Origin: Eubacterium sp. | GTDB lineage: Bacteria; Bacillota; Clostridia; Lachnospirales; Lachnospiraceae | DNA length: 64,000 nucleotides | Reading direction: 5' to 3' | NCBI GenBank assembly: GCA_017514785.1 | Contig: JAFWIO010000076.1 | Span: forward strand, 93,376 to 157,375 | Part shown: positions 1,266-57,865 of the stretch, one piece after another | How positions within the stretch are numbered: the first letter of the stretch is position 1 | How the letters are laid out: each line of letters starts with the position of its first letter | Position numbers and translations under genes: made by a program | Notes under the pieces: generated by a model | What the model saw: only the letters and a program-made list of their open reading frames with translations | Database searches by the model: none | Told to the model about the DNA's origin: nothing

Positions 1266-2114
1266 ATGAGAGGATTCACAAAGAAAATTGCTTCTGTAGT
1301 ATTAGCACTTACATTAGTAATCGGACTAACTACTTCAGCTTCAGCTGCTGATGCTTGGAAGGGTTACTTTGGAGCTAACGACGGAACATTCTGGGAAGGT
1401 GCTACAGGTGCAATGGGAACTAACACAGCAAAAGCATTTACTGCTAGAATGACATCAGTTGGTTGGGGCGGTGTCTGGGGATGCCAGGTTTCACAGCCAA
1501 TTAATCTAGTTAAGGGCAAAGCTTATGCTCAGTCATATACTATTAAGTCTACAAAGGCTAATAAGTATATCTATGTTAAGATGGCAACAAAAGAAACTAT
1601 TGCAAAAGCTTACTGGGTTAAACTTCCTAAGGGAAAAACAGTTAAAGTTGAGCAGGTATTCAAGGCAGCAAATCCAGCTAACCAGATTACATTCGGTCTA
1701 GGCGGAGACGCTGGTGACAGAGATGGTTCAGATGTAGACGCAGCTGTAAGATATGGTATCTTTGAAAAACAATTTAAGATTAAACGTAACCAGCTTGGTA
1801 CACTTGACTGTGATGGTGACTTCTCATCTGTTACAGATATTGAAGTTAAGAACTACTCACTAGGTGCTGCACCTACAAAGGTTAAATTCTCGGCTAAGGC
1901 TAAGGGTAAGAAGAAAGTTAAAGTTACTTTGAAGAAAGCAACTGGAATCAAGACTTTCGAGATCAAGGTAGGAAAAGTTAAGAAGAAAACTACTAAGACA
2001 TCAATCACTATCAAGGCTAAGAAGAAAGGTAAGCAAAAAGTTCAGGTTAGAGGTATCTCAGCTGACAAGGCTTACAAGACAAAATGGGCTACAAAGAAAG
2101 TTAAAGTTAAGTAA
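1266..2114 (+). CDS. secreted non-catalytic CBM-like protein with lysine-rich C-terminus
   Basis: Predicted to be exported. A Sec signal peptide (about 1-27, hydrophobic core then SASA-A) precedes a beta-sandwich-like domain (about 30-200). This contains a GWGGVWGCQ turn followed by a Y-x-Q-S-Y-x-I-x-S strand, the pattern of CBM4/9-type carbohydrate-binding modules. The last 80 residues are a lysine-rich, fibronectin-III-like domain ending KWATKKVKVK. No glycosidase motif or LPXTG sorting signal is present. It is the simplest of the four non-catalytic proteins in this cluster. The ligand is unknown; beta-1,3-glucan is inferred from the adjacent GH128 genes. The start follows TAAGGAGG. Confidence 0.75.
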   Translation: MRGFTKKIASVVLALTLVIGLTTSASAADAWKGYFGANDGTFWEGATGAMGTNTAKAFTARMTSVGWGGVWGCQVSQPINLVKGKAYAQSYTIKSTKANKYIYVKMATKETIAKAYWVKLPKGKTVKVEQVFKAANPANQITFGLGGDAGDRDGSDVDAAVRYGIFEKQFKIKRNQLGTLDCDGDFSSVTDIEVKNYSLGAAPTKVKFSAKAKGKKKVKVTLKKATGIKTFEIKVGKVKKKTTKTSITIKAKKKGKQKVQVRGISADKAYKTKWATKKVKVK

Positions 2115-2130
2115 AGAAAACTTTAAATAA

Positions 2131-2168
2131 AAAAAGACGTGTTAGCAAATGCTAGCACGTCTTTTTTT
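2131..2168 (+). terminator. intrinsic terminator
   Basis: Stem GACGTGTTAGCA / TGCTAGCACGTC (one G-T pair) with flanking A and T tracts, so it may act on both strands. Confidence 0.88.
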
Positions 2169-2293
2169 ATTGCTAATCTGCACTTTTATATCACGATGTG
2201 GTGTTACATTTACACTATAGATAGAGCGGATAATTGGTTTATTAGTTTGGTAAAAAAATATGGACATTCTAAAAAACTAGCACTTTATTGTAA

Positions 2294-2322
2294 TTGATAG
2301 AGATTTTCTATCGTGATATAAT
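2294..2322 (+). promoter_or_regulatory. promoter with imperfect palindrome, first GH128 gene
   Basis: TTGATA (2294-2299), a 17-base spacer and TATAAT (2317-2322). An imperfect inverted repeat GATAG...CTATC (2296-2312) lies between the two elements and could be an operator. The upstream stretch 2169-2293 is AT-rich with no gene. Confidence 0.65.
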
Positions 2323-2364
2323 TTTAAAAGATGAGGGAGCGGAAATCATCGGAAAGGAACCGAT

Positions 2365-4326
2365 ATGAAAAAAGTATTTAAAAGTATCAGTGTACTTGTT
2401 TTGAGTTTGGCACTTACAGTAAGTGGCCTTACTTTTGTGCAGACTGCTAAAGCAGATGCTATAAGTGATTGGAAAGCAAATGCAATCAAAACTCCTACAG
2501 AAGGAAACTTGTTAGGAGCGGGTTACATTGATGTAGAGTTTGATAACTCTTTGTCTGGATATTTTTATGAAGTATTCCTAGACAATGAACCAGTGTATTG
2601 GGATGGTAATAGCATAGTTAATCTAGATATCGATGGAGAGACTTTTGCAGGAAAAACTAGAAGAGAATACCCATCAGGAGGTTCTGGTTCTACTACAACG
2701 TCAGAAGTATATACAACAAAAGTTGCTAAACATGAAATTACAATTAAAGCTACTAAAGGTAGCGAGACTATAGTATCTAACCCTAGAACTTTCTATGTTT
2801 CTAAAAAAGGATTGGCTATGGGAGATGACATGGGCAATAAGATGCAATTAAAGAAGCTTAATTGCTCATGGTATTACAATTGGAATTCTTTTGGCTTCCA
2901 CAATAATATCGACGATGGCGTAGCGCATATGCCAATGATTTGGGGTGGACCAGAAGAAGATATTCAACAGCAAGTTGCAGAATATGAAAATGATTCAAAT
3001 TATATTTTAGGATTTAACGAGCCTGATATTGCAGGTCAAGCAAATATGGCATTCTTTGAAGGAACAGACATGTGGAAGAAGTACATTTCTCCTATGAACA
3101 AGAGAAAAGTATCTCCAGCCCCTGCATCACCTGGTGGAAACTCTCAATGGTTGAAATCATTCATCAAGGGAGACACTATTTGTTGGTTACCAGATGGATC
3201 ATGGGATTACTATTATATGTACGAGGGTGACCCAGCTTATACCCCAGTAAATATTGAAAGTGTTGATGATTGCGATGCAGTATGTTTGCACAGTTATCAA
3301 AACAAAATGAATTCTAGGGGATTAGTTAATGCCGTTAAGAATCTATGGAATACATATCATAAGCCAGTATGGGTTACAGAGATTGGCCTATTTGGTTCAA
3401 AGAGTGATTCTACAGATATGAGTTATGAGAATGCTGAGAAGAGAGCAGAAATACAAGAGTTTATGAAAACAGTTGTAAACGAATTAGAAGCTCTTCCATA
3501 TGTAGAAAGATATTGCTGGTTCTCATATGATGTTGAGAGCGCAAATGCTATAGATAACTTTGATGGTTCAGGTGGAACATCAATGTTTGAGTATACTTCT
3601 GGATTGTACACAGAATTAGGAAAAGCATATTCGGAGATAGCAAACCCAGCAGGATATAGTGCTAATACTATTTCTGATAGCGAAATGTTCAATTGGGATA
3701 CTAGAGTTAAGTACGCAGCTTCTTATAACAAGTCTAAAGATACAGCAACTATTTCATGGGATAAAGGTACATTAGATGCTATGCCAAAGATGGATATAAC
3801 TCTTGATGATAATCCTATTGAAGTTGAAAATGGTGGAGAGATTGATGTATCAAGTTTAGATGAAGGAAAGCATATTATTACATTCAATCTATATGCTGAA
3901 GATGGTACTACAGTAATACTTACAAAGACAAGAGGCTTCGTTATTGATAGAGCAGAAGAAACTACTACTGAAGCTCCTACGCAGGCGCCTACACAAGCGC
4001 CAACTCAAGCGCCTACAGTAGCGCCTACTAAGGCTCCAGTCAAGCCAGCTGTTAAGCCTGGTAAGACTACTATAAAAGGTAAAAATGTTAAGAAGAAATC
4101 AGCTAAACTTTCATGGAGTGCAGTTTCAGGCGCTAAGAAGTATAAGTTTAACTGGGCAATGAATAAAAAGTTCACAAAGAAGAGCAAGACAAAGATAATT
4201 ACTAAGACTTTTTTCAAAGTAAAGAAACTTAAGAAAAAGAAAACTTATTACTTTAGAGTAGCAGCAATAAATAATGCTGGTACAGGTCCTTGGTCTAACA
4301 CTAAGAAGATTAAAATCAAAAAGTAA
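2365..4326 (+). CDS. secreted GH128 (Asl1-like) putative beta-1,3-glucanase
   Basis: Likely endo-cleaving beta-1,3-glucanase. Order: signal peptide (about 1-31), an Ig/FN3-like domain (about 40-150), a GH128 TIM-barrel core (about 160-420), a second Ig-like stretch (about 435-535), a PTQA-repeat linker (about 538-560), and a lysine-rich FN3 domain ending NTKKIKIKK. The catalytic pair is visible as LGFNEPD (Glu219, acid/base) and WVTEIG (Glu339, nucleophile), together with the SWYYNW and PMIWG strands typical of PF11790. It is the largest of three GH128 paralogues here and the only one with the second Ig-like stretch. The ribosome site sits in a small hairpin (2348-2364). Confidence 0.85.
   Translation: MKKVFKSISVLVLSLALTVSGLTFVQTAKADAISDWKANAIKTPTEGNLLGAGYIDVEFDNSLSGYFYEVFLDNEPVYWDGNSIVNLDIDGETFAGKTRREYPSGGSGSTTTSEVYTTKVAKHEITIKATKGSETIVSNPRTFYVSKKGLAMGDDMGNKMQLKKLNCSWYYNWNSFGFHNNIDDGVAHMPMIWGGPEEDIQQQVAEYENDSNYILGFNEPDIAGQANMAFFEGTDMWKKYISPMNKRKVSPAPASPGGNSQWLKSFIKGDTICWLPDGSWDYYYMYEGDPAYTPVNIESVDDCDAVCLHSYQNKMNSRGLVNAVKNLWNTYHKPVWVTEIGLFGSKSDSTDMSYENAEKRAEIQEFMKTVVNELEALPYVERYCWFSYDVESANAIDNFDGSGGTSMFEYTSGLYTELGKAYSEIANPAGYSANTISDSEMFNWDTRVKYAASYNKSKDTATISWDKGTLDAMPKMDITLDDNPIEVENGGEIDVSSLDEGKHIITFNLYAEDGTTVILTKTRGFVIDRAEETTTEAPTQAPTQAPTQAPTVAPTKAPVKPAVKPGKTTIKGKNVKKKSAKLSWSAVSGAKKYKFNWAMNKKFTKKSKTKIITKTFFKVKKLKKKKTYYFRVAAINNAGTGPWSNTKKIKIKK
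3976..4035 (+). repeat. 12-base tandem repeat coding a P-T-Q-A linker
   Basis: Five copies of a 12-base unit (CCT-ACN-CAA/G-GCN type) encode the Pro-Thr linker between the catalytic part and the FN3 tail of the first GH128 protein. The last copies have drifted to P-T-V-A and P-T-K-A. Confidence 0.8.
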
Positions 4327-4351
4327 TTAAATCGCAATTGTGATAAGCAAG

Positions 4352-4379
4352 TTGTATGTGATAACGTTTATGCTATAAT
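4352..4379 (+). promoter_or_regulatory. extended -10 promoter with AACGTTTA boxes
   Basis: TGCTATAAT (TATAAT at 4374-4379) with a weak -35 TTGTAT (4352-4357, 16-base spacer). An AACGTTTA octamer sits inside the spacer (4363-4370) and an identical one lies downstream (4396-4403). No terminator is seen between 4327 and this promoter. Confidence 0.55.
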
Positions 4380-4441
4380 ATTAATAGGTTAGATGAACGT
4401 TTAAATATAAGAATAATTATTTTTATTAAGGAGGTTACAAA

Positions 4442-5584
4442 ATGAAAAGATTATTCAGCAAAACATTGGCAGTTGCCATTTCATTAGCAATGGTAGTTGC
4501 ACTAGGTGCAGGAATCTACTTCACAAAGAATACTCAAGCTGCGTCATATCTAGGATCAGCAGGTTGGGATTTTGAGCAAGGTGGATGTTACTCATCAGCT
4601 CAGGAAACTGAGTGGGGAAATGTCGGTTACATTAACAAAGTAACAATGGCAACAAATGGTGAATCAATCAACACTTGGGAAAGAGATTTGTATCAAACTC
4701 AGACACAGTCAGCTTCAGCTGATACTGGTGCCACTGTTGATATTCAAAACACTGGTTGGGACAGAAACTGGGATACTGATCCTTGGAGAATCAACCCTTG
4801 GTCTATTCAGGCTAAAGCTAAATTTAATGGTATGAATTATGATCACAATTACAAAGTTACATTTAAGGCTAAAGCTAACAAGAAAAAATATTGTTATGTA
4901 ACTTTCAATACTACTGTTGATGGTCATGAAATGAGTCCATATGATAATGTTGCTGGAGCACTTACAGGTGACCAACAGTGTATCGTTCTTGGAACTCAGG
5001 AGAAAGAATTCACATATTCATTCCCTGACTATGTTGGTGGACATGACTTATCAGTTGTATTCATGCTAGGTTGTTTTGGACCTGCAGAAGATGGTTCAGG
5101 CGCATATGACTTTGATGGAAATCTCCTTCCACAGGTAACTGAAGAAGAGAAGATGTGGTCAGGTAATGTTACAATTAGTGATATTAAGGTTGAAGACCTA
5201 GATCCAGAAAAGCCAACTGATCCTACAGAGCCACCACTATACACAACTACACCAGCAGCTCCTACTGTAGCACCACAGCCTACACAGGCTCCTACAGTTA
5301 AGCCTTCACCAGCACCAGCTAAGACATTAGCTAAGGTTACTAAGGTTAAGGTTAAGAGCGTAAAGAAGAAAACTATTAAAGTTTCTTGGAAGAAAGTAGC
5401 AAATGCTAAGTCATACCAGATTAAGGTTGGAAACAAGACTTATAAGGCTACAAAGAATTCTAAGAAGATCAAGAACAAGAAGTTCAAAAAAGGTAAGAAA
5501 GTTAAAGTTAAAGTTAGAGCTATGGCAGCTGGATATAAGACGGGTGCTTGGTCAAAGACAGTTAAGAAAAAACTTACTAAATAA
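4442..5584 (+). CDS. secreted non-catalytic CBM-like protein with Pro-Thr linker and FN3 tail
   Basis: Signal peptide (about 1-33, ending TQAA) followed by a roughly 210-residue beta-sandwich-like domain. This contains TGWDRNWDTDPW and an AKAKFNGMNYDHNYKVTFKA segment matching the CBM4/9 pattern of a ligand-contacting Trp turn followed by a Y-x-V-x-F-K-A strand. A Pro-Thr-rich linker (about 255-300) leads to a lysine-rich FN3 domain ending GAWSKTVKKKLTK. No catalytic motif is seen. It lies between GH128 and two related binding proteins and has its own promoter. The role is inferred to be glycan capture at the cell surface; the ligand is not shown. Confidence 0.72.
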   Translation: MKRLFSKTLAVAISLAMVVALGAGIYFTKNTQAASYLGSAGWDFEQGGCYSSAQETEWGNVGYINKVTMATNGESINTWERDLYQTQTQSASADTGATVDIQNTGWDRNWDTDPWRINPWSIQAKAKFNGMNYDHNYKVTFKAKANKKKYCYVTFNTTVDGHEMSPYDNVAGALTGDQQCIVLGTQEKEFTYSFPDYVGGHDLSVVFMLGCFGPAEDGSGAYDFDGNLLPQVTEEEKMWSGNVTISDIKVEDLDPEKPTDPTEPPLYTTTPAAPTVAPQPTQAPTVKPSPAPAKTLAKVTKVKVKSVKKKTIKVSWKKVANAKSYQIKVGNKTYKATKNSKKIKNKKFKKGKKVKVKVRAMAAGYKTGAWSKTVKKKLTK

Positions 5585-5595
5585 TTAAGTTTATC

Positions 5596-5630
5596 AAGAG
5601 CCCGCTGTTTTAAGACAACGGGCTCTTTAA
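5596..5630 (+). terminator. intrinsic terminator, weak T tract
   Basis: AAGAGCCCG (5596-5604) pairs with CGGGCTCTT (5619-5627). Only a short T run follows and the next gene starts 30 bases later with no clear promoter, so partial read-through is likely. Confidence 0.7.
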
Positions 5631-5659
5631 AAAATAACTTTGATACGGAGGATAGAAAA

Positions 5660-7141
5660 ATGAAAAAGAATATTTTCAAAAAGATTATAGTTAGTGTTCT
5701 ATCTCTATCTCTTATGTTCAGTTTTGCAGGACCAGTTTCAGCTGCACGTTCACACGCAGCTAATGGTTCGGATGTAATGCCAGCAGGTGGCAAATGGGTT
5801 TCATTCTCAGTACGTGACGATCTAAACTATAACCCACCTGGACCAAAGACAGATTGGGGTAAAGCTTTAGATGTTGAGATTCAGAAAGCATTGGATCAGG
5901 CATTAGCTGATTATAAAGCAGGTAAAATGACAGAAGCAGAGTATAATGCTAAAGTTGAAGAAATCAATGGATGGCAGAGTTATACTCAAGGTAGAGTTAT
6001 CGAGCCTAACAATTCAAGTACAGCTAAATTTTATGTAGTAAACTCCGGATGGGATGGCGAATACGCAGCTACTTCATACGGCGGAGAAAAGAAATTAGTT
6101 GGCGACAACCCTTGGGGTCTTACATTAACAATGGATAAGATTCCAGTAGAGTATGGTCGTTACTATACAATGTCATTTGACATTTCATCTGATCTACAGG
6201 GTAAGAATGCTGAGACAGGATTACAAGAAAGATCAGACAAATATTGTATCGTTAAAGCTTATGACTATCAGTCAAAGGGCGAACCATCAGCCGCATTTGA
6301 GTCATTCAAAGTTAATGGCAAAGAAGCTGCTAAAGATGGTAGATTCACAATAGCTAAAACTCCTACTGGAGAAGAAGCTGTTCAGACTCATATCGAAGCT
6401 ACATTTAAGATTCCTGACACTAAGAATGAGTGGAGTGGTGGACATGATGCAGGTATGTTCACAAACATGGGAATTAAGTTCGCTATGGGCGCATTCCTAA
6501 AGACTCATGAAGATGAAGTAGAAGCTGCAGAGAAGGATCCTACAGTAACTCCTGAAGAACTTGCTAAGCTTAAAGCATCAGAAATCGGTCTAAAGGGATA
6601 TGTTAACGTTACAAATATGAAGGTTATTGCTGGTACACAGTATGCTGTTAAGTATTTTGATGGATCAGTTCAAAAAGACTGCAGATATGTTAACGAATAT
6701 GGTCAGGCTAAGAATATTGCCCTAAAGAAGAAGGGTTATACACAGACTGGTTATATCAATATGGCTACAGGTTCTAAGTTTAGTTTTGGAACACTTATTG
6801 AAAAAGATACTAACCTAAAGGCTACTTGGATTAAAACTCAGAAGCCTAAGAAAGCATCTTTCACAGCTAAGAGTAAGAAGAAAAAGAAAATTACTGTTAA
6901 GTTTAAGAAGAATGCTAACGCTAGAGGTTACCAAGTAACATACTCACACAATAAGAAGTTCAAGAAGAAATCTAAATATAAGACAAAGACTAAGAATACA
7001 TCAAAGACATCAACATATACAATCAAGGGACTTAAGTCATCAAAGGTAGCATATGTTAAGGCTAGAGCTTACAACCTAGATTCTTGTGGAAACAAGGTTT
7101 ACGGAAAGTGGAGTAAGAGAAAGAGCGTTTACGTTAAATAA
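5660..7141 (+). CDS. secreted binding protein: CBM-like, InlB/Flg_new-like repeat, lysine-rich FN3
   Basis: Signal peptide (about 1-28, ending PVSA) and a large N-terminal region (about 30-325). The latter includes an NSGWDGEYAA...NPWGLTLTM segment and a YYTMSFDISS strand like the other CBM-type modules here. Residues about 330-393 resemble a Listeria-Bacteroides (Flg_new/InlB B-type) repeat: YAVKYFDG...GYTQTGY...TNLKATW. The C-terminus (about 400-493) is a lysine-rich FN3 domain ending YGKWSKRKSVYVK. No catalytic residues were recognised. It is a clear paralogue of the next gene; the pair looks like a tandem duplication. Confidence 0.75.
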   Translation: MKKNIFKKIIVSVLSLSLMFSFAGPVSAARSHAANGSDVMPAGGKWVSFSVRDDLNYNPPGPKTDWGKALDVEIQKALDQALADYKAGKMTEAEYNAKVEEINGWQSYTQGRVIEPNNSSTAKFYVVNSGWDGEYAATSYGGEKKLVGDNPWGLTLTMDKIPVEYGRYYTMSFDISSDLQGKNAETGLQERSDKYCIVKAYDYQSKGEPSAAFESFKVNGKEAAKDGRFTIAKTPTGEEAVQTHIEATFKIPDTKNEWSGGHDAGMFTNMGIKFAMGAFLKTHEDEVEAAEKDPTVTPEELAKLKASEIGLKGYVNVTNMKVIAGTQYAVKYFDGSVQKDCRYVNEYGQAKNIALKKKGYTQTGYINMATGSKFSFGTLIEKDTNLKATWIKTQKPKKASFTAKSKKKKKITVKFKKNANARGYQVTYSHNKKFKKKSKYKTKTKNTSKTSTYTIKGLKSSKVAYVKARAYNLDSCGNKVYGKWSKRKSVYVK

Positions 7142-7157
7142 TTTTTCATTTTTAAAT

Positions 7158-7199
7158 GCACAGAGAGGTGACCAATCATCACCTTTCTGTGCTATTTTT
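7158..7199 (+). terminator. intrinsic terminator
   Basis: Long stem GCACAGA-AGGTGA / TCACCT-TCTGTGC with single mismatches, followed by TATTTTTA. Confidence 0.8.
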
Positions 7200-7246
7200 A
7201 TGTTACTATATACATGTAGAAAATATTAGTAAAAATCCCTATATTT

Positions 7247-7255
7247 TGGTATAAT
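7247..7255 (+). promoter_or_regulatory. extended -10 promoter
   Basis: TGGTATAAT (TATAAT at 7250-7255) with no good -35. It lies about 65 bases upstream of the GTG start of the next gene, leaving a leader with a small hairpin (TTAGAT / ATCTAA). Confidence 0.55.
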
Positions 7256-7320
7256 TGTAGGGAAGTGTGACCGGATTAGATTTGGATGATATTTCATCTA
7301 AAACTTAAAGGAGAATTGTC

Positions 7321-8721
7321 GTGAAGAAGGTTATTATGGGTAAAAACTTAATGAAGAAACTAGTAGTTAGCATTCTTTCTCTATCTATGGTATTTGGACT
7401 ATCTGGTTCAGTTTTTGGCGCGTCACACGCACCAAATGGATCAAATGTAATACCATCTAATGCATCTTGGAGTAGTTTTTCCATTTGTACTAGAGAAGAC
7501 GGAGGTTCATGGGAAGATTCATTAAAGAAAGTATATAGAACTAATTCAGATGGTTCTTATTTCTTAAATGAGAATGGAGAGAAAGTCACCTTTGTAAAGG
7601 GCGTTGATTACGCAACAGAAGGTTGGATTAACGGAACAGAAGGATTAAAAAATGATTCTAGTGAAGTTACTTTCTACTGTAAGGCTACAGGATGGGACGG
7701 CGAATATGGTCAGATGACACGAGGAGGCCCATCTATTCTAGTTGCAGATAACCCATGGGGAATGACATTAACTATGACTGGAATTACAGTTGAGTTTGGT
7801 CGTTACTATACAATGGAATTTGATATGTTGGGTGATTTTAGTGCAGTTATTTATGATGCCATTACTGGCAAGACTACATATCAACCAGCAGAAAAACATA
7901 TTTTGCTTAAGGCATATGATTACAATTCAAACGGTGAACCATCAGCGGCATTCGAGAGTGTTACACAGGATGATGACCCAATATCTAAAGATGGTTTCAT
8001 AACAGTTAAAAAGAAAGAAGCGGGTTATTCCCATATAGTTGCCACATTTAAAATTCCTGAGTCACCAGATGACTGGGGTGGTGGAAAGCATAAAGGTTCT
8101 TTCACTAATGTAGGTATCAAGTTTGCACTTGGTGCTAACCTTATCTCATATCCATTAGAGGGATCGATGAGAGGTAACATTCATATCAAGAATATGAAGA
8201 TGTTGGCTGGAAAGCAGTACACAGTTAAATACTATGACGGAAGTAAGCAAAAGGCCACAAAGTATGTAAATGATGAAGAATCTGCTAATAGTGTTAAACT
8301 TTCTAAAGCATATAACACATTGGCTGGATATACAGATATGGCTACTGGAAAGAAGTTTAACTTCTCAACTATCTTAACTAAAGATATGAACTTGAGAGCT
8401 ATTTGGACTAAGACTCCAGCTCCAGGTAAAGCATCAATCGCTTCAGCTAAGAGTAAAAAGAAGAAGAGAGTGATTGTTACATTTGGTACAAACAAAAATG
8501 TTAGAGGATATCAAGTAACATATTCATACAGTAGCAAATTTAAAAAGAAATCAAAGTTTAAGACAAAAACCAAGAATACTTCAAATACCTCCTCATACAC
8601 TATTAAGTCTCTAAAGTCGGGCTCGGTAGTATATGTAAAAACAAGAGCTTATAATCTTGATTCAGTAGGTAATAAGATATTTGGTTCATGGAGCTCAAAG
8701 AAAGTATCTTACGTAAGATAA
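7321..8721 (+). CDS. secreted binding protein, tandem paralogue of the preceding CBM protein
   Basis: Same architecture as the neighbour at 5660: signal peptide, CBM-like region with ATGWDGEYGQ and NPWGMTLTM, a YYTMEFDM strand, one Flg_new-like repeat (YTVKYYDG...NLRAIW), and a lysine-rich FN3 tail ending FGSWSSKKVSYVR. The start is GTG at 7321, chosen because AAAGGAG (7307-7313) lies seven bases upstream. ATGs at 7336 and 7351 lack such spacing and would still leave a usable signal peptide. The insert between the signal peptide and the GWDG module differs from the paralogue, suggesting divergence of that part. No enzyme motif was found. Confidence 0.75.
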   Translation: MKKVIMGKNLMKKLVVSILSLSMVFGLSGSVFGASHAPNGSNVIPSNASWSSFSICTREDGGSWEDSLKKVYRTNSDGSYFLNENGEKVTFVKGVDYATEGWINGTEGLKNDSSEVTFYCKATGWDGEYGQMTRGGPSILVADNPWGMTLTMTGITVEFGRYYTMEFDMLGDFSAVIYDAITGKTTYQPAEKHILLKAYDYNSNGEPSAAFESVTQDDDPISKDGFITVKKKEAGYSHIVATFKIPESPDDWGGGKHKGSFTNVGIKFALGANLISYPLEGSMRGNIHIKNMKMLAGKQYTVKYYDGSKQKATKYVNDEESANSVKLSKAYNTLAGYTDMATGKKFNFSTILTKDMNLRAIWTKTPAPGKASIASAKSKKKKRVIVTFGTNKNVRGYQVTYSYSSKFKKKSKFKTKTKNTSNTSSYTIKSLKSGSVVYVKTRAYNLDSVGNKIFGSWSSKKVSYVR

Positions 8722-8735
8722 AAAAGTAAATAGTG

Positions 8736-8772
8736 GTGTGGGGAGACTTAGTTGTTTTCCCACGCTTTTTTT
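8736..8772 (+). terminator. intrinsic terminator
   Basis: GTGTGGG (8736-8742) pairs with CCCACGC (8759-8765), one G-T pair, followed by seven T. The next gene begins 30 bases later without a separate promoter that I can see. Confidence 0.75.
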
Positions 8773-8802
8773 AATAAAAAATAAAAATAAAGGAACGGAA
8801 AA

Positions 8803-10323
8803 ATGAAAAAAGTTATAACAATTATTCTATCAATCGCATTATTTGTATCAGGATTAGTAGTTACACCTGTAGCTGCTAGAGATACCAGAACTCCTGATGA
8901 GTGGAAAGGTCAAGCTATTACAGCTCCTGCAGCTAATAGTTTGATTGGTGCGGGTCACATTGACCTTAAATGGCACGGAGATCTTGAAAATGCTAGCAAG
9001 TATACAGCTTATGTAGATTCTAAGGCTATTAAGACTGTGAATGCTGGTACACCAGGAATCATGAGTGTAGATTTTTACACTGTTAGTGTTAGTGCTCATT
9101 CTGCATACATAGTGGCTGAACAGACAGACGGTACAAAGGTTCAGTCGGATACTGTGAAGTTCTACGTTACTAAAAAAGGTATCTGCGTTAATGCAAAAGA
9201 TATGGGTGTAGCAGTAGACCCAGCAGCTATGAACATTGGTTGGTACTACAACTGGGGAACAAAATCATTTGAAGAAACTGGATTTAAGAACACTAAGTTC
9301 TACGGTTTAGATTATGTTCCAATGTTTTGGAATGATCCAAGTGAAGCATATTCAGACTGTTTCGCTAGATTTAATGAACATGCTTACAAATATGTATTGG
9401 CATACAACGAGCCAGACTTAGTTTGGGAGTCAAACATCAAAGCAGATGTTGCTACTAGAAGATGGAGAAATGATTTAATGCCTAATAGAGGAAATGTGCT
9501 TTTAGGTTCTCCTGCAGTATCAGTTTATCCACAGTGGTCAGACTGGTGGAAGACATACTGGTCAATGCTTCCTGATTCTAGCAAGGCAGCAACCAACTTT
9601 ATTGCAGTACACAACTATAATAAATATTACAACGGCAAAGATACAGCGCTTGATTATCTAGAAAAGATAGATGAGTGTTATAACAAATATAGAAAACCAA
9701 TTTGGATTACAGAGTTCGCTATCTGGAAGTTTGACAAGAACGACAAAGCAGGATGTGCAAAGACTCAGGAATTCATGAGAATAGTTCTTAAAGGTTTGAA
9801 TGAGAGAAGTTATGTAGAAAGATATTCTTGGTTCTCACCAGACCTTAATTCTAAAGACGCAAGTTCATCTAGTCTATTTGATTACGGAACAGGTGCACTT
9901 ACAACTATCGGTAAAGTATATGCACAGATTGGAAATCCAGCAGGATATCCAGCTAAAACATATGGCGTACCATCAGGTTGTAGCTACAGCACAACTCCAG
10001 CAGCTTGTATTGCATCACAAAAGACTACACTTTACGGACTAACAAAGAAAAAGAAAGCGTTCAAGTATTCAATCAAAGCGATGGACGGAGCTGTTAAGTA
10101 TCAGATTCAGTACTCGCTAAGCAAGAAGTTTAGTAAGAAGAAAAAATATAAGACAAAGATTAAGACAGTAGGAGCAGCTACATCAGACGAAAAGAACGGA
10201 ACAATAAAGAAACTAAAGAAAAAGAAAAGATATTATGTACGAGTAAGAGCAATCAAACAATTCTTAGGCAAAAATTATTACTGTGCATGGAGTGCTAGAC
10301 AGTCAGTGAAGACTAAAAAGTAA
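8803..10323 (+). CDS. secreted GH128 (Asl1-like) putative beta-1,3-glucanase
   Basis: Second GH128 paralogue. Signal peptide (about 1-25, ending PVAA), an FN3/Ig-like domain (about 35-140, with the shared N-S-L-I-G-A-G-H-I-D-L motif), then the GH128 core (about 145-385). The core has NIGWYYNWG, PMFWNDP, LAYNEPD (Glu203 acid/base) and WITEFA (Glu304 nucleophile). There is no Pro-Thr linker; instead a short segment with two cysteines (GCSYSTTPAAC) joins the lysine-rich FN3 domain ending AWSARQSVKTKK. It is followed after 59 bases by the third paralogue, with no terminator between them, so the two are probably co-transcribed. Confidence 0.85.
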   Translation: MKKVITIILSIALFVSGLVVTPVAARDTRTPDEWKGQAITAPAANSLIGAGHIDLKWHGDLENASKYTAYVDSKAIKTVNAGTPGIMSVDFYTVSVSAHSAYIVAEQTDGTKVQSDTVKFYVTKKGICVNAKDMGVAVDPAAMNIGWYYNWGTKSFEETGFKNTKFYGLDYVPMFWNDPSEAYSDCFARFNEHAYKYVLAYNEPDLVWESNIKADVATRRWRNDLMPNRGNVLLGSPAVSVYPQWSDWWKTYWSMLPDSSKAATNFIAVHNYNKYYNGKDTALDYLEKIDECYNKYRKPIWITEFAIWKFDKNDKAGCAKTQEFMRIVLKGLNERSYVERYSWFSPDLNSKDASSSSLFDYGTGALTTIGKVYAQIGNPAGYPAKTYGVPSGCSYSTTPAACIASQKTTLYGLTKKKKAFKYSIKAMDGAVKYQIQYSLSKKFSKKKKYKTKIKTVGAATSDEKNGTIKKLKKKKRYYVRVRAIKQFLGKNYYCAWSARQSVKTKK

Positions 10324-10382
10324 TTAATGTTGTTTATTGATATTCGTGGGGAAGAATATTTATAAAGGATAAAGGTGACACT

Positions 10383-11891
10383 ATGAAAATCACAAAAAGA
10401 ATTTTAGCAATTGCATTATCGTTAGCATTGGCAGTGGGCGGATTATATTTTGCTACGCCAAAGGAAACGGAAGCTGCTACTGATTTTGCTATCACAGCGC
10501 CTAAGAATGGATCTCTTAAGGCGGCAGGTTATATGGATATAACCTGGGAAGATGCATCGGCCATCAAGGCAGTTAAAAACTACGATGTATTTGTCGATGG
10601 TAGTTTGGTAAAAACTACTACAGACACAAAGTATGAGTTCTATACAACAAAAGTTAACTTCCATAAGGCATGGGTTAGAGCTAACTTTAAAGATGGAACA
10701 AATCACTACACAGTTACAGTTAACTTTGGTGTAACTAAAAAAGGATTGGCAGTAGAAACCGGTATGGGCTCAAACAATATTGATCCTCAAGCAATGGGAC
10801 TTGGTTGGTATTACAACTGGGGACGTGGTGCTTATAGAGGAAAGTATACTGATATAGAGTATGTTCCGATGGTATGGGGCGATACAAATGTGGCTACTAT
10901 CCGCAACAAAGTTCAAACAGCTATCAATTCCAAGTATAAATATATCCTTGGCTTCAACGAACCAGATATGGACTGGAGTGGAGGTGGATGTAACATGGAT
11001 ACAGCCACAGCTGTAGGTCTATGGCCTAACTTTACAGATTTTAAAGACAAGATTAAAATTTGTTCTCCAGCGTATGCTATCTGGGGCAAAAATAGTAAGA
11101 TGGTTCAGTTTATGGCAGGAGTTAATAATGATGTAGATGTAGTTTGCCTACACTGTTACCCAGCTGACTGGAACGGTGGAAAAGCTATGGCTGACTGGTT
11201 CCTATCAAGTGTGGTTGATGATGCATGGGACAGATATCACAAACCTATTTGGATTACTGAGTATTCAACATCAGGAAATGGTATTACTCAAGCAGGAACA
11301 TCATCATTTATTGAAAACTTACTACCAGGTCTAGATGAAAGAGAATATGTTGAAAGACATTCATTCTTCTCATTCAACTCAGCTACGTTTGGCGGAGGAT
11401 TATATAACTATAATACTGGTGAATTATCTCAGTCAGGAGAGGCTTATGCTTCACATGGTAACCCAGAAACATATTACAAATCTGGTGAGGCTGTAAACCC
11501 AAGAGATTCTGAGGATCCAACTCAGGAGCCATTCACAGAGGCTACTACAGCACCAACACCAACAGTTAAGCCTACAGTTAAACCAACAGTTAAACCTACA
11601 GTTAAGAAACCTGCCAAGGTTAAAATTAAAAAGGCTAAGAATAAGAAGAAGAGAAAGATTAAGATTACTCTTAAGAAGATTAAGGGTGCAAAGGGATACC
11701 ATATCAGATATTCAGACAGCAAGAAGTTTGACGGATACTGGGATAAATATACTAAGAAGACAAAAGTTACTCTTAAGAAGCTAGACAAGAACACTAAATA
11801 CTACATCAAGGCAAGAGCCTATAAGTTAGTAAATGGTTCTAAGTTGTATGGCAAGTGGAGTAAGAAAAAGAAAGTTAAAGTTAAAAAATAA
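10383..11891 (+). CDS. secreted GH128 (Asl1-like) putative beta-1,3-glucanase
   Basis: Third GH128 paralogue. Signal peptide (about 1-32, ending TEAA), FN3/Ig-like domain (about 35-125), GH128 core (about 130-360) with GLGWYYNWG, PMVWGDT, LGFNEPD (Glu193) and WITEYS (Glu293). A TVKP-repeat linker (about 392-410) and a lysine-rich FN3 tail ending YGKWSKKKKVKVKK follow. Both catalytic glutamates are present, so activity is expected. The substrate is assigned from the family and is not shown here. A strong terminator ends the cluster. The ribosome site (AAAGGATAAAGGTG) is adequate. Confidence 0.86.
   Translation: MKITKRILAIALSLALAVGGLYFATPKETEAATDFAITAPKNGSLKAAGYMDITWEDASAIKAVKNYDVFVDGSLVKTTTDTKYEFYTTKVNFHKAWVRANFKDGTNHYTVTVNFGVTKKGLAVETGMGSNNIDPQAMGLGWYYNWGRGAYRGKYTDIEYVPMVWGDTNVATIRNKVQTAINSKYKYILGFNEPDMDWSGGGCNMDTATAVGLWPNFTDFKDKIKICSPAYAIWGKNSKMVQFMAGVNNDVDVVCLHCYPADWNGGKAMADWFLSSVVDDAWDRYHKPIWITEYSTSGNGITQAGTSSFIENLLPGLDEREYVERHSFFSFNSATFGGGLYNYNTGELSQSGEAYASHGNPETYYKSGEAVNPRDSEDPTQEPFTEATTAPTPTVKPTVKPTVKPTVKKPAKVKIKKAKNKKKRKIKITLKKIKGAKGYHIRYSDSKKFDGYWDKYTKKTKVTLKKLDKNTKYYIKARAYKLVNGSKLYGKWSKKKKVKVKK
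11562..11609 (+). repeat. 12-base tandem repeat coding a T-V-K-P linker
   Basis: Four copies of an ACA-GTT-AAR-CCN unit encode the linker of the third GH128 protein. The identical period and near-identical units make length change by slippage plausible. Confidence 0.8.
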
Positions 11892-11979: not shown

Positions 11980-11995
11980 TAAAAGGAATTAAACA

Positions 11996-12154
11996 TAGTA
12001 GAGGCTGCGCTTGATAAGAGTAAGTTATAGGATGCACCTAAGCAGTTGAGTATAACTGAAAGGAGAGAGCGCCGAAGGATAACTGGTAGGAAGGTTGTCC
12101 TGGGCATAAGATAAATAATCTTATGACTGTCATCAAAAGGATGGAGAGCTACTT
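11996..12154 (+). ncRNA. lysine riboswitch (L-box)
   Basis: Upstream of dapA-dapB. The conserved L-box blocks appear in order: AGAGGCTGCGC, AGAGTAAG, GGATGCACCT, CTGAAAGGAG, GCCGAAGG, CTGG, a GGGCATAAG hairpin, CTGTCATC and GGAGAGCTACT. P1 closes AGTAG (11997-12001) with CTACT (12149-12153). A rho-independent hairpin at 12166-12197 follows, so control is expected to be by lysine-dependent transcription termination. The aptamer and terminator occupy most of the 356-base gap between the glucanase cluster and dapA. Confidence 0.93.
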
Positions 12155-12165
12155 ATTAATTTTTG

Positions 12166-12247: not shown

Positions 12248-13132
12248 ATGTCTATATTCAAAGGAGCAGGTGTAGCTATTATTACACCATTCAAAGAAAA
12301 CGGAGATGTTAACTTTGACGAATTCGGAAAACTAATCGAGATGCAGATTGAAGGTGGCACAGATGCTATTATCGTATGTGGAACTACAGGTGAAGCGTCC
12401 ACTATGAATGATGACGAACATCTAGCTACTATCAAATATTGTATCGATAAAGTGGCTGGAAGAATCCCTGTGGTAGCAGGTACTGGTTCTAACAGCACAA
12501 AAGAAGCAGTAAATCTATCTAAGAAAGCTGCAGAGCTAGGAGCAGATGGACTTCTTTGTGTAACACCTTACTACAACAAGGCTACACAGGAAGGCTTATA
12601 TCAATACTACAAAGCAATTTCTGATGCTGTTGATATTCCAATCATTATGTACAATGTGCCAGGACGTACTAGCACAAATATCCAGCCAGAGACTGCAGTT
12701 AGAATAGCAAAAGAAGTAGAAAACGTAGTTGCTATTAAAGAGGCTTCTGGAAATATCGCACAGGTTGCAAAACTTGCATCACTTGCTGATGGTTGTCTTG
12801 ATATTTATTCAGGAAATGATGATCAGGTATTGCCTCTAATGTCACTTGGCGGAATCGGTGTTATTTCTGTATGGAGTAATGTGGCTCCAAAGCAGGTTCA
12901 CGATATGACAACAGCATTCCTAAACGGTGATGTTGAAACGGCTAGAAAGCTTCAGCTAGATGCTATCGATTTGATTGGCGCACTATTCTGCGAAGTAAAC
13001 CCTATCCCAGTTAAGGCTGGTGTAAATATGCTTGGCTACAATGCAGGCTCACTTCGTGCACCTCTAACAGAGATGACAGACGCCGGCAAAGAGCGTCTAA
13101 GAAAGGCAATGGAAGACTACGGTATTCTATAG
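12248..13132 (+). CDS. dapA: 4-hydroxy-tetrahydrodipicolinate synthase
   Basis: Condenses pyruvate with aspartate semialdehyde, the first committed step of lysine and diaminopimelate synthesis. The 294-residue length is standard for this TIM-barrel family. The Schiff-base lysine is Lys164 in VAIKEASGN, and the catalytic tyrosine is Tyr135 in IMYNVPGRT. The GTTGEAST phosphate-type loop is also present. It is preceded by a lysine riboswitch and an AGGAGG site, and dapB follows after nine bases, so the pair forms a lysine-controlled operon. No dapL, dapD or asd is seen nearby; lysA is about 28 kb away. Confidence 0.97.
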   Translation: MSIFKGAGVAIITPFKENGDVNFDEFGKLIEMQIEGGTDAIIVCGTTGEASTMNDDEHLATIKYCIDKVAGRIPVVAGTGSNSTKEAVNLSKKAAELGADGLLCVTPYYNKATQEGLYQYYKAISDAVDIPIIMYNVPGRTSTNIQPETAVRIAKEVENVVAIKEASGNIAQVAKLASLADGCLDIYSGNDDQVLPLMSLGGIGVISVWSNVAPKQVHDMTTAFLNGDVETARKLQLDAIDLIGALFCEVNPIPVKAGVNMLGYNAGSLRAPLTEMTDAGKERLRKAMEDYGIL

Positions 13133-13141
13133 GAGGCGAAC

Positions 13142-13897
13142 ATGACAAAAGTAATAATGCATGGCTGTAATGGCCATATGGGAAAAGTTATATCTGAGTT
13201 AGTGGCAAAAGATGACGCTATCGAGATAGTAGCTGGTATAGATCTAAATACAGAGGAAAACTTTGGATATCCAGTATTTGCAAATATCATGGACTGTGAT
13301 GTGGAGGCAGATGCTATCATAGATTTTTCTGTGGCAGTGGCTGTAGACGCACTACTAGACTTCGTCAAAGAAAAAGGTATCCCAGTAGTTCTTTGTACAA
13401 CAGGCCTATCAGATGAACAGTTAGCAAAAGTAGAAGAAGTATCAAAAGATGTGGCAGTTCTAAAGTCTGCAAACATGTCACTTGGAATCAACACACTTAT
13501 GAAACTTCTAAAGATGGCTACAGAAGTGTTGGCTGACAGAGGATATGATATAGAGATAGTTGAGAAACATCACAACCAAAAGCTAGATGCACCTAGTGGT
13601 ACAGCATTGGCTTTGGCGGATGTAATCAACGAGACAAAAGATAATAGATATGAATATGTTTTTGACAGAAGTCAGAAACGCGAGAAGAGATCAGATAACG
13701 AGATTGGAATCTCAGCCGTAAGAGGCGGAACTATCGTAGGACAGCATGATGTTATTTATGCCGGCACCGACGAAGTAATCGAGATCCAGCACACTGCATA
13801 CTCAAAGGCGGTCTTTGCGAAAGGCGCAATAGACGCAGCTAAATTCCTGGCCGGCAAAGGCCCAGGAATGTATGACATGAGCGATGTTATAGACTAA
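13142..13897 (+). CDS. dapB: 4-hydroxy-tetrahydrodipicolinate reductase
   Basis: NAD(P)H-dependent reduction of the DapA product. An N-terminal Rossmann motif (CNGHMGKV) is followed by the catalytic signature EKHHNQKLDAPSGTAL, with the active-site histidine and lysine and the substrate-binding SGT. The 251-residue length is normal. Second gene of the riboswitch-controlled operon; its ribosome site AGGAGG overlaps the gap after dapA. A clear terminator follows. Confidence 0.97.
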   Translation: MTKVIMHGCNGHMGKVISELVAKDDAIEIVAGIDLNTEENFGYPVFANIMDCDVEADAIIDFSVAVAVDALLDFVKEKGIPVVLCTTGLSDEQLAKVEEVSKDVAVLKSANMSLGINTLMKLLKMATEVLADRGYDIEIVEKHHNQKLDAPSGTALALADVINETKDNRYEYVFDRSQKREKRSDNEIGISAVRGGTIVGQHDVIYAGTDEVIEIQHTAYSKAVFAKGAIDAAKFLAGKGPGMYDMSDVID

Positions 13898-13981: not shown

Positions 13982-15946
13982 ATGAAAAAGATTAAAGTAT
14001 GCGCGGCTACACCAAATATTACAGTGGCCGACCCAAAAGCAAATGCAAAAGAGATTATAAGAATTTCCAAGAATGCAGGAAAGAAAGGTGCAAAATTAAT
14101 TGTATTTCCAGAGCTTTCTTTGACGGGGTGTACTTGTGGAGATTTATTCTTCCAAGATGCTTTGCTAGAGAGTGCAATGGAAAACTTAGAAGTGATAGCA
14201 GAGAAGACTAAAGATATCAAGGCTGCTATTGTTTTTGGTTTGCCTGTTATGATGGATCACGACATTTACAACGTGGCTGCAGTTTTGTTTAAGGGTAAAC
14301 TTTGTGGTTTCGATATCAAGAACAAAACACTCTGGGATGCATATGGAGATGAGTTTAGATGGTTCAGATATAGACTAAGAGGAAAAGTTAAGAATATCGA
14401 ATTTTTACCTTTCAATTTAAAAAATAAATCCGGAAAACTAATTGATAACATGTCCGGTGGTTATGATTTAGATATAAGTGAAAACTTACGAATTGATTTC
14501 AAAAGACAGCTAGGTTTTATTCTAGGTGTTGGAATTGGAAATGACGGAGAAGGTAGATATTACGAGTGCTCATACAGAGGCGATGAAGTAGATATAGTAG
14601 CGCACTTAGGTGCTAGAAGAAAAGTAGTGGATGAAGACACAGAAGATTTTGTTCAAAATGTTGCTTATGATTCAAATGCTCAGGTAGTTTATGCTGAAGC
14701 AGGTGATGGAGAGTCTAGTACAGACTTTGTCTTTGCCGGAGAGAGCACTATAGCAAGTGAGTACACAGTTTATAAGAAATCTACTCCATTTAAGAATCAA
14801 GCAATAATAGCAGAAGTTGATATAGATGAAAAGAAGGATGCATTAGTTCGCAATCAGTACGGACAGACTATTGCAAAGTCTGAAGAGGGTCCTTCAAAAC
14901 ACAAACGCCCTGAAATTGTAATGTTAGATGGTGATTATTGGTCAATGCCATCTGATATGTTGGGATTTAACCCATTTATCCCTGATGATGAGCGCGACAA
15001 AGTAAAGATGTGCAAAAACATTTTGAAGATTCAGTCAAAGGCGTTGGTAAAGAGAATGAAGACTGTCGGAGCGGACAAATTGGTAGTGGGCATATCTGGT
15101 GGACTTGATTCTACTTTGGCGCTAATTGCATGTGTGAATGCTTGTGATGAACTAAAGATTAATCACAAGAATATTATCGCAATTACTATGCCAGGTTTTG
15201 GAACAACTAGTAGAACACACGATAACGCTAGTAAGATGATGAGATTTTACGGCGTTACAAAGAAAGAAATTGATATCACAGAATCAGTGAAGCAACATTT
15301 CGCAGACATTAAACACGGTATTAGAAATAAGAATGCTACATTTGAAAATGCGCAGGCTAGAATGCGCACAATGATTTTGATGGATGTGGCTAATGACAAT
15401 AATGCGTTGGTGGTAGGAACTGGAGACTTCTCTGAACTTGCTCTTGGATGGTGCACATACAATGGTGATCACATGGCTATGTATAGTGTAAATGCAAACA
15501 TTCCAAAGACTGTGATTAGAGAAGTGGTAAATTACGAGGCAGATAGAATTAAGAATGAGCGACTAAGTAAGATTCTTAAGGATATTGTGGATACGCCGGT
15601 TAGTCCAGAACTTCTTCCAAGCAAAAAAGATAAGATTGCTCAAAAGACAGAAGATATAGTAGGACCATATGAGCTGCACGATTTCTTCTTGTATGAGATA
15701 GTGTATTTAGGTAAAACTCCAAGTGAAGTGGAGTCGGATGCTATTGTTAACTTTATGGAGCAGTACAAGATAGATGTTGTTAAGCATTGGCTAAAAGTGT
15801 TTATAAAGAGATTTTTCTCGCAACAGTTCAAGAGAAATTGTAGCCCTGATGGACCACAGGTGTTCTCATTTGGATTTTCACCAAGAGGCGGATTTATGAT
15901 GCCATCAGATGCCTCGGCCAAAGCTTGGCTAGATTATTTAAAGTAG
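13982..15946 (+). CDS. nadE: NAD+ synthase, two-domain type with degenerate glutaminase domain
   Basis: Amidates nicotinic acid adenine dinucleotide to NAD+. The 654-residue layout is that of glutamine-dependent enzymes: nitrilase-like domain (about 1-270) and synthetase domain (about 320-654). The latter has the PP-loop ISGGLDSTLAL and the GTGDFSELALGW block. In the nitrilase half, Glu44 (FPELSLTG) and Lys115 (NKTLWDAYGDEF) fit the catalytic positions. The V-C-E-D nucleophile motif is absent: counting back from the conserved GDGESSTD block, Val183 in FILGVGIGND takes the cysteine's place. The nearest cysteine is Cys196. It may therefore use free ammonia, or another nucleophile. A SD-type GGAG precedes the start. 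Confidence 0.9.
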   Translation: MKKIKVCAATPNITVADPKANAKEIIRISKNAGKKGAKLIVFPELSLTGCTCGDLFFQDALLESAMENLEVIAEKTKDIKAAIVFGLPVMMDHDIYNVAAVLFKGKLCGFDIKNKTLWDAYGDEFRWFRYRLRGKVKNIEFLPFNLKNKSGKLIDNMSGGYDLDISENLRIDFKRQLGFILGVGIGNDGEGRYYECSYRGDEVDIVAHLGARRKVVDEDTEDFVQNVAYDSNAQVVYAEAGDGESSTDFVFAGESTIASEYTVYKKSTPFKNQAIIAEVDIDEKKDALVRNQYGQTIAKSEEGPSKHKRPEIVMLDGDYWSMPSDMLGFNPFIPDDERDKVKMCKNILKIQSKALVKRMKTVGADKLVVGISGGLDSTLALIACVNACDELKINHKNIIAITMPGFGTTSRTHDNASKMMRFYGVTKKEIDITESVKQHFADIKHGIRNKNATFENAQARMRTMILMDVANDNNALVVGTGDFSELALGWCTYNGDHMAMYSVNANIPKTVIREVVNYEADRIKNERLSKILKDIVDTPVSPELLPSKKDKIAQKTEDIVGPYELHDFFLYEIVYLGKTPSEVESDAIVNFMEQYKIDVVKHWLKVFIKRFFSQQFKRNCSPDGPQVFSFGFSPRGGFMMPSDASAKAWLDYLK

Positions 15947-28159: not shown

Positions 28160-28504
28160 GGGCTAGTACTGGTTTCGACAGGGATTTGGAAACTGGGGAA
28201 GCGAGTCGTATGGGATGCGTTAAATGCCAATTTTAAATTTAAACGCTGATAAAAAATTAGCAATCGCTGCGTAATTTATTCGTAGCAATCTGACTTTAAT
28301 GCACCTACACTTTAATTTCAGGTTTTATGATTATGTAGGAAACGACGGATGCTTTCGCTTCAAAGCATTTGGGCGTATCTAGAAGCTACCTATTTCACTT
28401 GGGTGTCTATCTCCGTTTGAATTAGGGAATTTTAATGATAGACTACACTCGTAGAAGCACAGCGGAAGAATTTTTGGACGCGAGTTCGACTCTCGCCTAG
28501 TCCA
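28160..28504 (+). ncRNA. ssrA: transfer-messenger RNA
   Basis: Rescues stalled ribosomes by trans-translation. The 5' end GGGCTAG (28160-28166) pairs with CTAGTCC (28497-28503) to form the acceptor stem. The hallmark GGTTTCGACAGGG follows the 5' end and a GAGTTCGACTCTC T-arm precedes the 3' end. The tag reading frame runs from GCT at 28245 to TAA at 28272-28274 and encodes ADKKLAIAA, which has the expected hydrophobic A-A end for ClpXP. CCA is not encoded after the discriminator A. The gene is intact and no integrated element is visible at its 3' end. SmpB is not in the window. Confidence 0.95.
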
Positions 28505-28506
28505 CT

Positions 28507-28542
28507 AAAATAAGCACATCATTATAGATGTGCTTATTTTTA
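28507..28542 (+). terminator. intrinsic terminator of ssrA
   Basis: AAAATAAGCACATC (28507-28520) pairs with GATGTGCTTATTTT (28527-28540). Confidence 0.9.
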
Positions 28543-57825: not shown

Positions 57826-57865
57826 TAACTGAATAAACCTAGACCAATACGGAGGTGGAATGATT

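Follow-up and report, generated by a model that had tools for sequence, protein, structure and literature searches.

A Lachnospiraceae Gene Cluster for Putative β-1,3-Glucan-Binding Proteins and GH128-Type Enzymes with Lysine-Rich Tails

Introduction

In the β-1,3-glucan loci of Bacteroides, the non-catalytic surface glycan-binding proteins (SGBPs) SGBP-A and SGBP-B are encoded beside endo-glucanases; as parts of PMC7157763 describe them, the similarity of the binders is particularly low and the set of endo-glucanases varies notably between related species. We analysed a 64,000-nucleotide stretch of a Lachnospiraceae genome (Eubacterium sp.), hereafter the window, in which a cluster of seven genes likewise encodes exported (as judged by eye), non-catalytic proteins together with their cognate glycanases. 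The cluster is probably the outer, extracellular part of a system for degrading β-1,3-glucan, in which the putative binders P1, P3, P4 and P5 and the GH128-type enzymes P2, P6 and P7 would be held on the cell surface by a common tail. Unlike the Bacteroides loci, it belongs to a Gram-positive family, has no SusC or SusD that we could see and contains GH128 rather than GH16 or GH158 enzymes; its binders resemble carbohydrate-binding modules (CBMs) of the CBM4/9 type and carry a basic tail, and the phosphorylase and GH16 genes lie elsewhere. In a Pfam scan at E up to 1, none of the seven proteins matched SusC or SusD, and the Bacteroides-type system is an analogy only.

A Gram-positive polysaccharide utilization locus, as outlined in parts of PMC10318527, combines glycoside hydrolases, an ABC transporter and a regulator; the β-glucan loci of this kind lack SGBPs, which are often replaced by CBMs associated with endo-acting enzymes. 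The Blautia producta locus described there resembles the present one in that CBM4 modules act with a β-glucanase, in its ABC uptake and in the commonality with Lachnospiraceae that is noted there, but its four CBM4 modules lie within the GH16 enzyme, whereas here there are four separate binding-type proteins and three enzymes. Neither P1 to P7 nor their neighbours efp, dapA and dapB include a transporter or a regulator, and the permease-like open reading frames (ORFs) that accompany GH16 and phosphorylase genes sit on another contig than the cluster. By analogy, the cluster would work like an SGBP system, but it is not of the SusC/SusD type nor, because it holds no transporter or regulator, a canonical Gram-positive locus.

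Sas20, the starch binder of the Ruminococcus bromii amylosome (in parts of PMC9112005), is likewise a Gram-positive secreted polysaccharide binder that is not an enzyme, but it serves starch within the amylosome complex; here there is no sign of such a complex, and no search was aimed at one. Adjacent GH94 and GH161 genes with GH16 and ABC genes have been described, and in Acholeplasma laidlawii GH161 lies near GH94 with GH16 and ABC parts, much like a contig of the present genome; the portion of that account available (PMC6484121) describes oligosaccharide uptake and phosphorolysis, not a cluster of binders and GH128 enzymes. In the GH128-CBM6 curdlanase (CBM6E, in parts of PMC10956234), a GH128 enzyme also acts with a glucan-binding β-sandwich module, but module and enzyme form one chain, while here they form separate chains, except in one protein of a relative (L131). 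We found no published account of this binder/GH128 system in the open-access literature.

Results

Layout of the cluster

The source genome comprises 1.48 Mb in 85 contigs and is 90.7% complete. In the list of ORFs of the window, seven consecutive plus-strand ORFs, P1 to P7, occupy positions 1266-11891, and the N-terminus of each shows a basic and then hydrophobic, signal-like stretch when judged by eye. The sequence-only reading from which this work started had described these as consecutive same-strand genes for exported proteins, and the seven ORFs bear this out at these positions, with export judged by eye:

1266..2114, plus strand: P1, exported, 282 amino acids (aa), module and lysine-rich tail without enzyme domain; matched at 8.2e-29 by the profile of module alignment A4, in which P1 is itself a row
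2365..4326, plus strand: P2, exported GH128-type enzyme, 653 aa, with N-terminal stretch (called Ig-like by analogy with P7), catalytic core, linker and FN3 tail
4442..5584, plus strand: P3, exported, non-catalytic, 380 aa, with CBM4_9-like module, PT-rich linker and lysine-rich FN3-like tail
5660..7141, plus strand: P4, exported, non-catalytic, 493 aa, with module, small middle domain and lysine-rich tail
7321..8721, plus strand: P5, exported non-catalytic paralogue of P4, 466 aa, no Pfam match
8803..10323, plus strand: P6, exported GH128-type enzyme, 506 aa
10383..11891, plus strand: P7, exported GH128-type enzyme, 502 aa, with an Ig-like N-terminus (Big_7 8.7e-4, below cut-off)

GH128-type enzymes

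The GH128-type core PF11790 was matched above the Pfam cut-off by P2 (E 1.8e-37), P6 (3.7e-43) and P7 (1.3e-39), the only three PF11790 matches in this 90.7% complete genome:

2827..3630, plus strand: GH128-type core of P2 (PF11790, residues 155-422)
9220..9921, plus strand: GH128-type core of P6 (PF11790, residues 140-373)
10767..11447, plus strand: GH128-type core of P7 (PF11790, residues 129-355)

The best solved-structure match of all three is PDB 6uaq (P7 1e-22, P2 9.8e-20, P6 4.4e-20), which we take to be of GH128 subgroup I. Other solved matches of the cores include 6uax, and 6uax and 6uav are named as subgroup II in parts of PMC10956234. The catalytic glutamates, E219/E339 in P2, E203/E304 in P6 and E193/E293 in P7, lie in the NEPD and WxTE motifs of GH128 (NEPD and WVTE in P2) and are accompanied by HxY; both glutamates of P7 align to 6uaq, and both motifs are kept in 64 of the 65 GH128-type ORFs found in 20 related regions. 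The core matches, the 6uaq alignments and the motif positions thereby confirm the earlier claim of three GH128 cores with both catalytic glutamates, and we infer from these features that P2, P6 and P7 hydrolyse β-1,3-glucan.

The module of the binding-type proteins

P1, P3, P4 and P5 gave no enzyme match above cut-off in Pfam or NCBIfam. We compared profiles made from their orthologue alignments after removal of the first 25 residues and the tail, and found that they share a homologous module (P1-P3 96.5%, P1-P4/5 96.7% and P3-P4/5 99.5% probability), while column-shuffled controls, 20 per pair and 60 in total, reached 2.7% at best. The modules of three of these proteins were delimited as follows:

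4538..5197, plus strand: CBM4_9-like module of P3 (profile homology; boundaries set in this analysis)
5750..6634, plus strand: CBM4_9-like module of P4 (profile homology)
7423..8211, plus strand: module of P5, homologous to that of P4

In two relatives, the module regions of L134:2595-5660 and L136 exceed the CBM_4_9 cut-off of 25.9 (32.8 and 37.2 bits), and this match falls within the stretch found by the module alignment A4; the module is therefore classed, by transitive homology, as a divergent CBM4/9-type module. The module regions of L137 and L135 stay under the cut-off, and 9 of the 18 rows of A4 match CBM_4_9 at E up to 1, the best at 1.2e-4. A profile search of the full-length alignment A1 against solved structures produced no convincing relative, the best match having E 0.053. 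The sequence-only reading had described CBM-like modules and no enzyme motif in the four proteins: the lack of an enzyme match and a shared module stand, and the CBM label is firm for the two relatives and weak for the proteins of the window.

The module is also found fused to enzymes. Nine large module-bearing ORFs of relatives were scanned, a set without L138 (2663 aa) and the fusion protein of 729 aa in L070. GH128 is present in one of the nine (L131) and GH16 in four (L133, L136, L095 and L093:4675-6927), and the remaining four have no enzyme (L132, L134:2595-5660, L135 and L137); no other glycosidase family was found in these nine. We rejected the idea that the module is a general family, since at E up to 1e-6 it occurs in 1 of 398 genomes of the phylum, the source genome itself; weak partial matches (7e-5 to 8e-4) were seen in 8 of the 397 genomes sampled from the family. 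A further stand-alone module protein of the same genome (L092:8775-10001 on contig C4, 3.6e-17) has a basic end and lies beside a ruvB-like gene, and proteins of similar size match in other genomes of the genus.

Conservation in the genus and beyond

PF11790 is present in all 22 genus relatives searched and the module in 23 of 23 genus genomes. We then took the best BLASTP match over at least 100 residues as the orthologue in 20 fetched regions, and found P1 in 16, P2 in 19, P3 in 17, P4 or P5 (labels that are interchangeable in distant relatives) in 20, P6 in 19, P7 in 15, dapA in 18 and efp in 14. Many of these genomes are incomplete and several missing orthologues correspond to contig ends; with no adjoining contig end, L043 lacks P2, L045 lacks P1, and both L035 and L038 lack P7. 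Identity was at most 40% for 3 of 19 P2, 11 of 17 P3 and 3 of 15 P7 matches, and many matches of P3, P4 and P5 lie at 27-40%.

Within the genus, the cluster is found again between efp and dapA-dapB, and a reduced form of it occurs in a second genus, G342, whose locus contains dehydrogenase-like and ssb-like genes (named by eye), a GH128 protein that ends lysine-rich, a 729 aa protein, dapA and dapB. This 729 aa protein is a fusion of two modules (5.2e-32 and 4.4e-23). The gene-order comparison with relatives that the sequence-only reading had suggested thus finds module and GH128 together at the same locus in the genus and in G342.

Among 397 genomes of the family, a strong GH128 match (E<1e-30) occurs in ten and a strong module match in three, all three among the ten and two of them from one genus. 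We did not accept all PF11790 matches in the family as true GH128, as E<1e-30 is reached in only 10 of the 33 matching genomes. A search with P4 led to five named relatives, all metagenome-assembled genomes, namely uncultured Lachnospiraceae RUG13824, Lachnospira sp. UBA3790, uncultured Eubacterium (reindeer), Eubacterium sp. (yak reticulum) and uncultured Lachnospira, of which two name a ruminant.

Genomic context

The genome contains ten GH16 matches, nine of which show a motif like the GH16 active site in the stretches fetched; the pattern used did not register one in the tenth. One contig (C49, L096) carries two GH16 genes, a GH161-type and a laminaribiose phosphorylase gene and, by eye, permease-like ORFs. 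The best solved match of its 1059 aa protein is the GH161 phosphorylase 9qqk (3.2e-243), and its 923 aa protein is close to the laminaribiose phosphorylase 6ggy (1042 bits). A GH161 homologue is present in 21 of 23 genus genomes, and the two genomes that lack it have a completeness of 91% and 59%. Because the genome has GH16, GH161-type and laminaribiose phosphorylase genes, β-1,3-glucan is most likely the ligand and substrate of the cluster; the genome looks like that of a β-1,3-glucan specialist, with the cluster as its surface capture-and-cleavage layer. Next in the same C49 region comes a protein of 1094 aa that looks secreted and has a basic end.

The sequence-only reading had also joined a GH16 enzyme encoded at 48045 to this system. 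The GH16 gene is real, and the specific tie did not hold: it lies 36 kb from the cluster, has 7 lysines in its last 80 residues and thus no lysine-rich tail, is one of ten GH16 genes and has modules unrelated by profile, so that we rejected it as a specific partner.

Lysine-rich tails

All seven proteins end in a strongly basic tail, the last 95 residues of P1 to P7 carrying a net charge of +23 to +36. In a profile comparison, these 95 residues were homologous in 21 of 21 pairs of the seven tail families (95.5-100%), the profiles being built from orthologues with at least 13 lysines in their last 80 residues; two tail profiles compared with the column-shuffled P7 tail (20 shuffles each) reached 1.5% at most. 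The Pfam fn3 cut-off is passed only by P2 (8.5e-8); P3 remains below it (4e-4), and P1 and P5 have no fn3 match in Pfam. Hence, of the earlier claim that all seven share one lysine-rich FN3 domain, the common descent of the tails stands in every pair and the FN3 label holds above cut-off for P2. The tails are placed as follows:

1860..2111, plus strand: lysine-rich tail of P1 (profile homology to the other six tails, charge; boundaries set by us)
4045..4323, plus strand: lysine-rich FN3 tail of P2 (Pfam fn3, profile homology)
5327..5581, plus strand: lysine-rich FN3-like tail of P3 (Pfam below cut-off, profile homology)
6845..7138, plus strand: lysine-rich FN3-like tail of P4 (Pfam scan, profile homology)
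8422..8718, plus strand: lysine-rich tail of P5 (profile homology to the others)
10015..10320, plus strand: lysine-rich FN3-like tail of P6 (Pfam scan, profile homology)
11598..11888, plus strand: lysine-rich FN3-like tail of P7 (Pfam scan, profile homology)

With at most four candidates scored per genome, the full-length alignment A1 found matches in 83 of the 397 family genomes; leaving aside the genus and one G342 protein, the matches listed start at or beyond model position 265 of 472 and are mostly tail. In the source genome itself, three GH16 ORFs end lysine-rich (25-29 of the last 80 residues). In 12 of the 20 cluster regions there is an extra GH128-type protein without a lysine-rich tail, which has instead, by eye, an N-terminal stretch like a membrane helix, and this suggests, without proving it, that the tail serves retention. 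A search of the open-access literature found nothing on a lysine-rich FN3 wall tail.

Proposed mechanism and alternatives

The host belongs to the Lachnospiraceae, and ruminants are the source of some of its close relatives. In the mechanism that we propose, P1, P3, P4 and P5 would bind glucan as stand-alone proteins based on a divergent module of the CBM4/9 type, and P2, P6 and P7 would be GH128-type endo-β-1,3-glucanases. The strongly basic FN3-like tail most likely holds all seven exported proteins on the anionic cell surface by charge. There, the binders would keep insoluble β-1,3-glucan, from yeast or fungal walls or from plant callose, near the enzymes, in a cooperation that would set free oligosaccharides. 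These may be taken up by an ABC importer encoded with GH16, the GH161-type β-1,3-glucan phosphorylase and the GH94 laminaribiose phosphorylase elsewhere in the genome. The earlier notion of exported proteins that hold and cut β-1,3-glucan is supported in this form by the module fusions, by co-conservation and by a matching cytoplasmic pathway, with specific binding and hydrolysis as its presumed activities.

Several observations weigh against this proposal. The modules of P1, P3, P4 and P5 are all under the CBM_4_9 cut-off, P3 with E 7.3e-5 and 23.6 bits against the required 25.9, and P4 with E 0.087. Seven of the ten family genomes with strong GH128 have no strong module match, and the modules of the GH16 protein at 48045 are not detectably related to the cluster module in a profile comparison. 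The NCBIfam GH149 model gives the 1059 aa phosphorylase 87 bits at a cut-off of 1150, and the 923 aa phosphorylase has no NCBIfam match. Because the A1 matches listed beyond the genus cover mostly the tail, the lysine-rich tail is a widespread feature of the family and says nothing specific on glucan; no sortase motif was noticed by eye, anchors not having been searched systematically. Nor need the seven genes form one transcript: terminator-like hairpins number 5 against a shuffled mean of 5.0 (the two longest at 7158 and 8735) and promoter-like sequences 35 against 38.6. As neither count is above shuffles, we rejected a simple single operon.

The wide distribution of the tail leads to the alternative that it is a general trait of secreted proteins in this family and no anchor, so that the proteins act in the medium. 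The A1 matches in 83 of 397 family genomes, mostly to the tail outside the genus among those listed, and the lysine-rich ends of three GH16 ORFs of the genome speak for it, but the tail-less GH128-type proteins with a membrane-helix-like N-terminus in 12 of 20 regions look as if retention devices had been swapped, and we regard this alternative as possible and rather unlikely. The members of CBM4/9 have several ligands, and the modules described here are divergent; the four non-enzymes might thus bind another glycan, such as mixed-linkage glucan, cellulose or the cell's own wall, and be mere neighbours of GH128 genes. The paralogue L092:8775-10001, which lies apart from any glucan gene that we noticed, beside the ruvB-like gene (names by eye), would fit this, but the module is fused to GH128 and GH16 in relatives, the two-module fusion adjoins GH128 in the second genus and the cluster recurs in the genus, all of which makes another ligand improbable. 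It is more doubtful still that living or dead fungal or yeast cells are the target, to be attacked or adhered to (mycolysis, wall adhesion), with feeding being secondary. GH128 and CBM4-like modules would suit fungal-wall glucan, and parts of PMC11351036 discuss rumen yeasts and anaerobic fungi as β-glucan sources; however, the genome encodes an intracellular pathway for laminari-oligosaccharides (GH161-type, GH94 and GH16), and the GH161 homologue is kept in 21 of 23 genus genomes.

If, as the β-1,3-glucan degradation system would have it, P1, P3, P4 and P5 bind this glucan, the published contrast between Gram-positive β-glucan loci and Bacteroides with respect to SGBPs no longer holds, and a simple surface system made of a basic tail and an exchangeable module appears in Lachnospiraceae.

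Mosaic evolution among close relatives

We next compared the window with its close relative UBA3790 (L054) at four-fold sites. The differences are 6/80 in efp, 15/144 in dapA, 10/107 in dapB, 16/198 in P5 and 18/204 in P6. Three genes are divided: in P3, the module differs at 18/34 sites and the tail at 2/33; in P4, the module at 37/85, the middle domain at 0/27 and the tail at 1/35; and P7 has 5/37 in its Ig part, 27/68 in its GH128 part and 2/27 in its tail. The three tails remain close to the background level seen in efp, dapA and dapB. Identity climbs steeply around residue 300 in P3 and residue 320 in P4, and it drops around residue 120 in P7; P4 is also patchy within its module, and P2 is divergent throughout (tail 9/17). 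The first 20 codons are 96-100% identical in P1, P2 and P7 and are not conserved in P3 (71%) and P4 (75%).

Six pairs, all with a dapA-dapB divergence below 30%, were then compared. The N-terminal part of P3 is clearly more divergent than the tail in 4 of 5 pairs, the exception being L044-L050 (20/86 vs 6/34). That of P4 is more divergent in 6 of 6 pairs and that of P7 in 5 of 5, in both cases by a small margin in L046-L047 and L044-L050, and in most pairs P5 and P6 lack this contrast. For six selected comparisons, uncorrected Fisher tests gave 2.8e-4 (P3), 1.5e-4 (P4) and 0.008 (P7) for the window and UBA3790, 5.5e-4 (P3) and 0.033 (P4) for G003-G009, and 1.4e-4 (P3) for G015 and the window.

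Fast protein evolution as the only cause of the mosaic was rejected, since the silent four-fold sites are strongly different too. The simplest reading would be that the divergent parts were replaced by divergent alleles through recombination. A nadE-like gene at 13982-15946 is also divergent in UBA3790 (74/172 four-fold sites, 74% identical), unlike dapA and dapB, which are 99-100% identical there; an entire housekeeping gene may thus have been swapped too, and exchange in this region is therefore not confined to the glucan genes.

Tentatively, and with rather more reserve than for the system as a whole, the cluster could be seen as a Gram-positive counterpart of SGBPs made of dispersed binding-only and cutting-only proteins with a common basic tail. 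It would evolve by cassette exchange, in which P3, P4 and P7 swap the glucan-facing part and keep their own tail and P2 is exchanged nearly whole, so that a strain could adjust its glucan range one module at a time. Mosaic alleles in close relatives provide natural pairs in which to study the re-tuning of binding specificity.

Neighbouring genes and other observations

The cluster is flanked by efp (663-1220) before P1 and by dapA-dapB (12248-13897) after P7, names that were read from the sequence, and the neighbourhood with dapA-dapB is kept in 18 of the 20 related regions and in G342. Between the cluster of very lysine-rich secreted proteins and the dapA-dapB genes of lysine synthesis, a lysine riboswitch (RF00168, 105.6 bits) lies at 11991-12159. 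Further along the window, a tmRNA gene (RF00023, 141.6 bits) occupies 28160-28507, and 57860-58966 encodes a CAP-domain protein with two Big_2-type stretches that is, by eye, lysine-rich.

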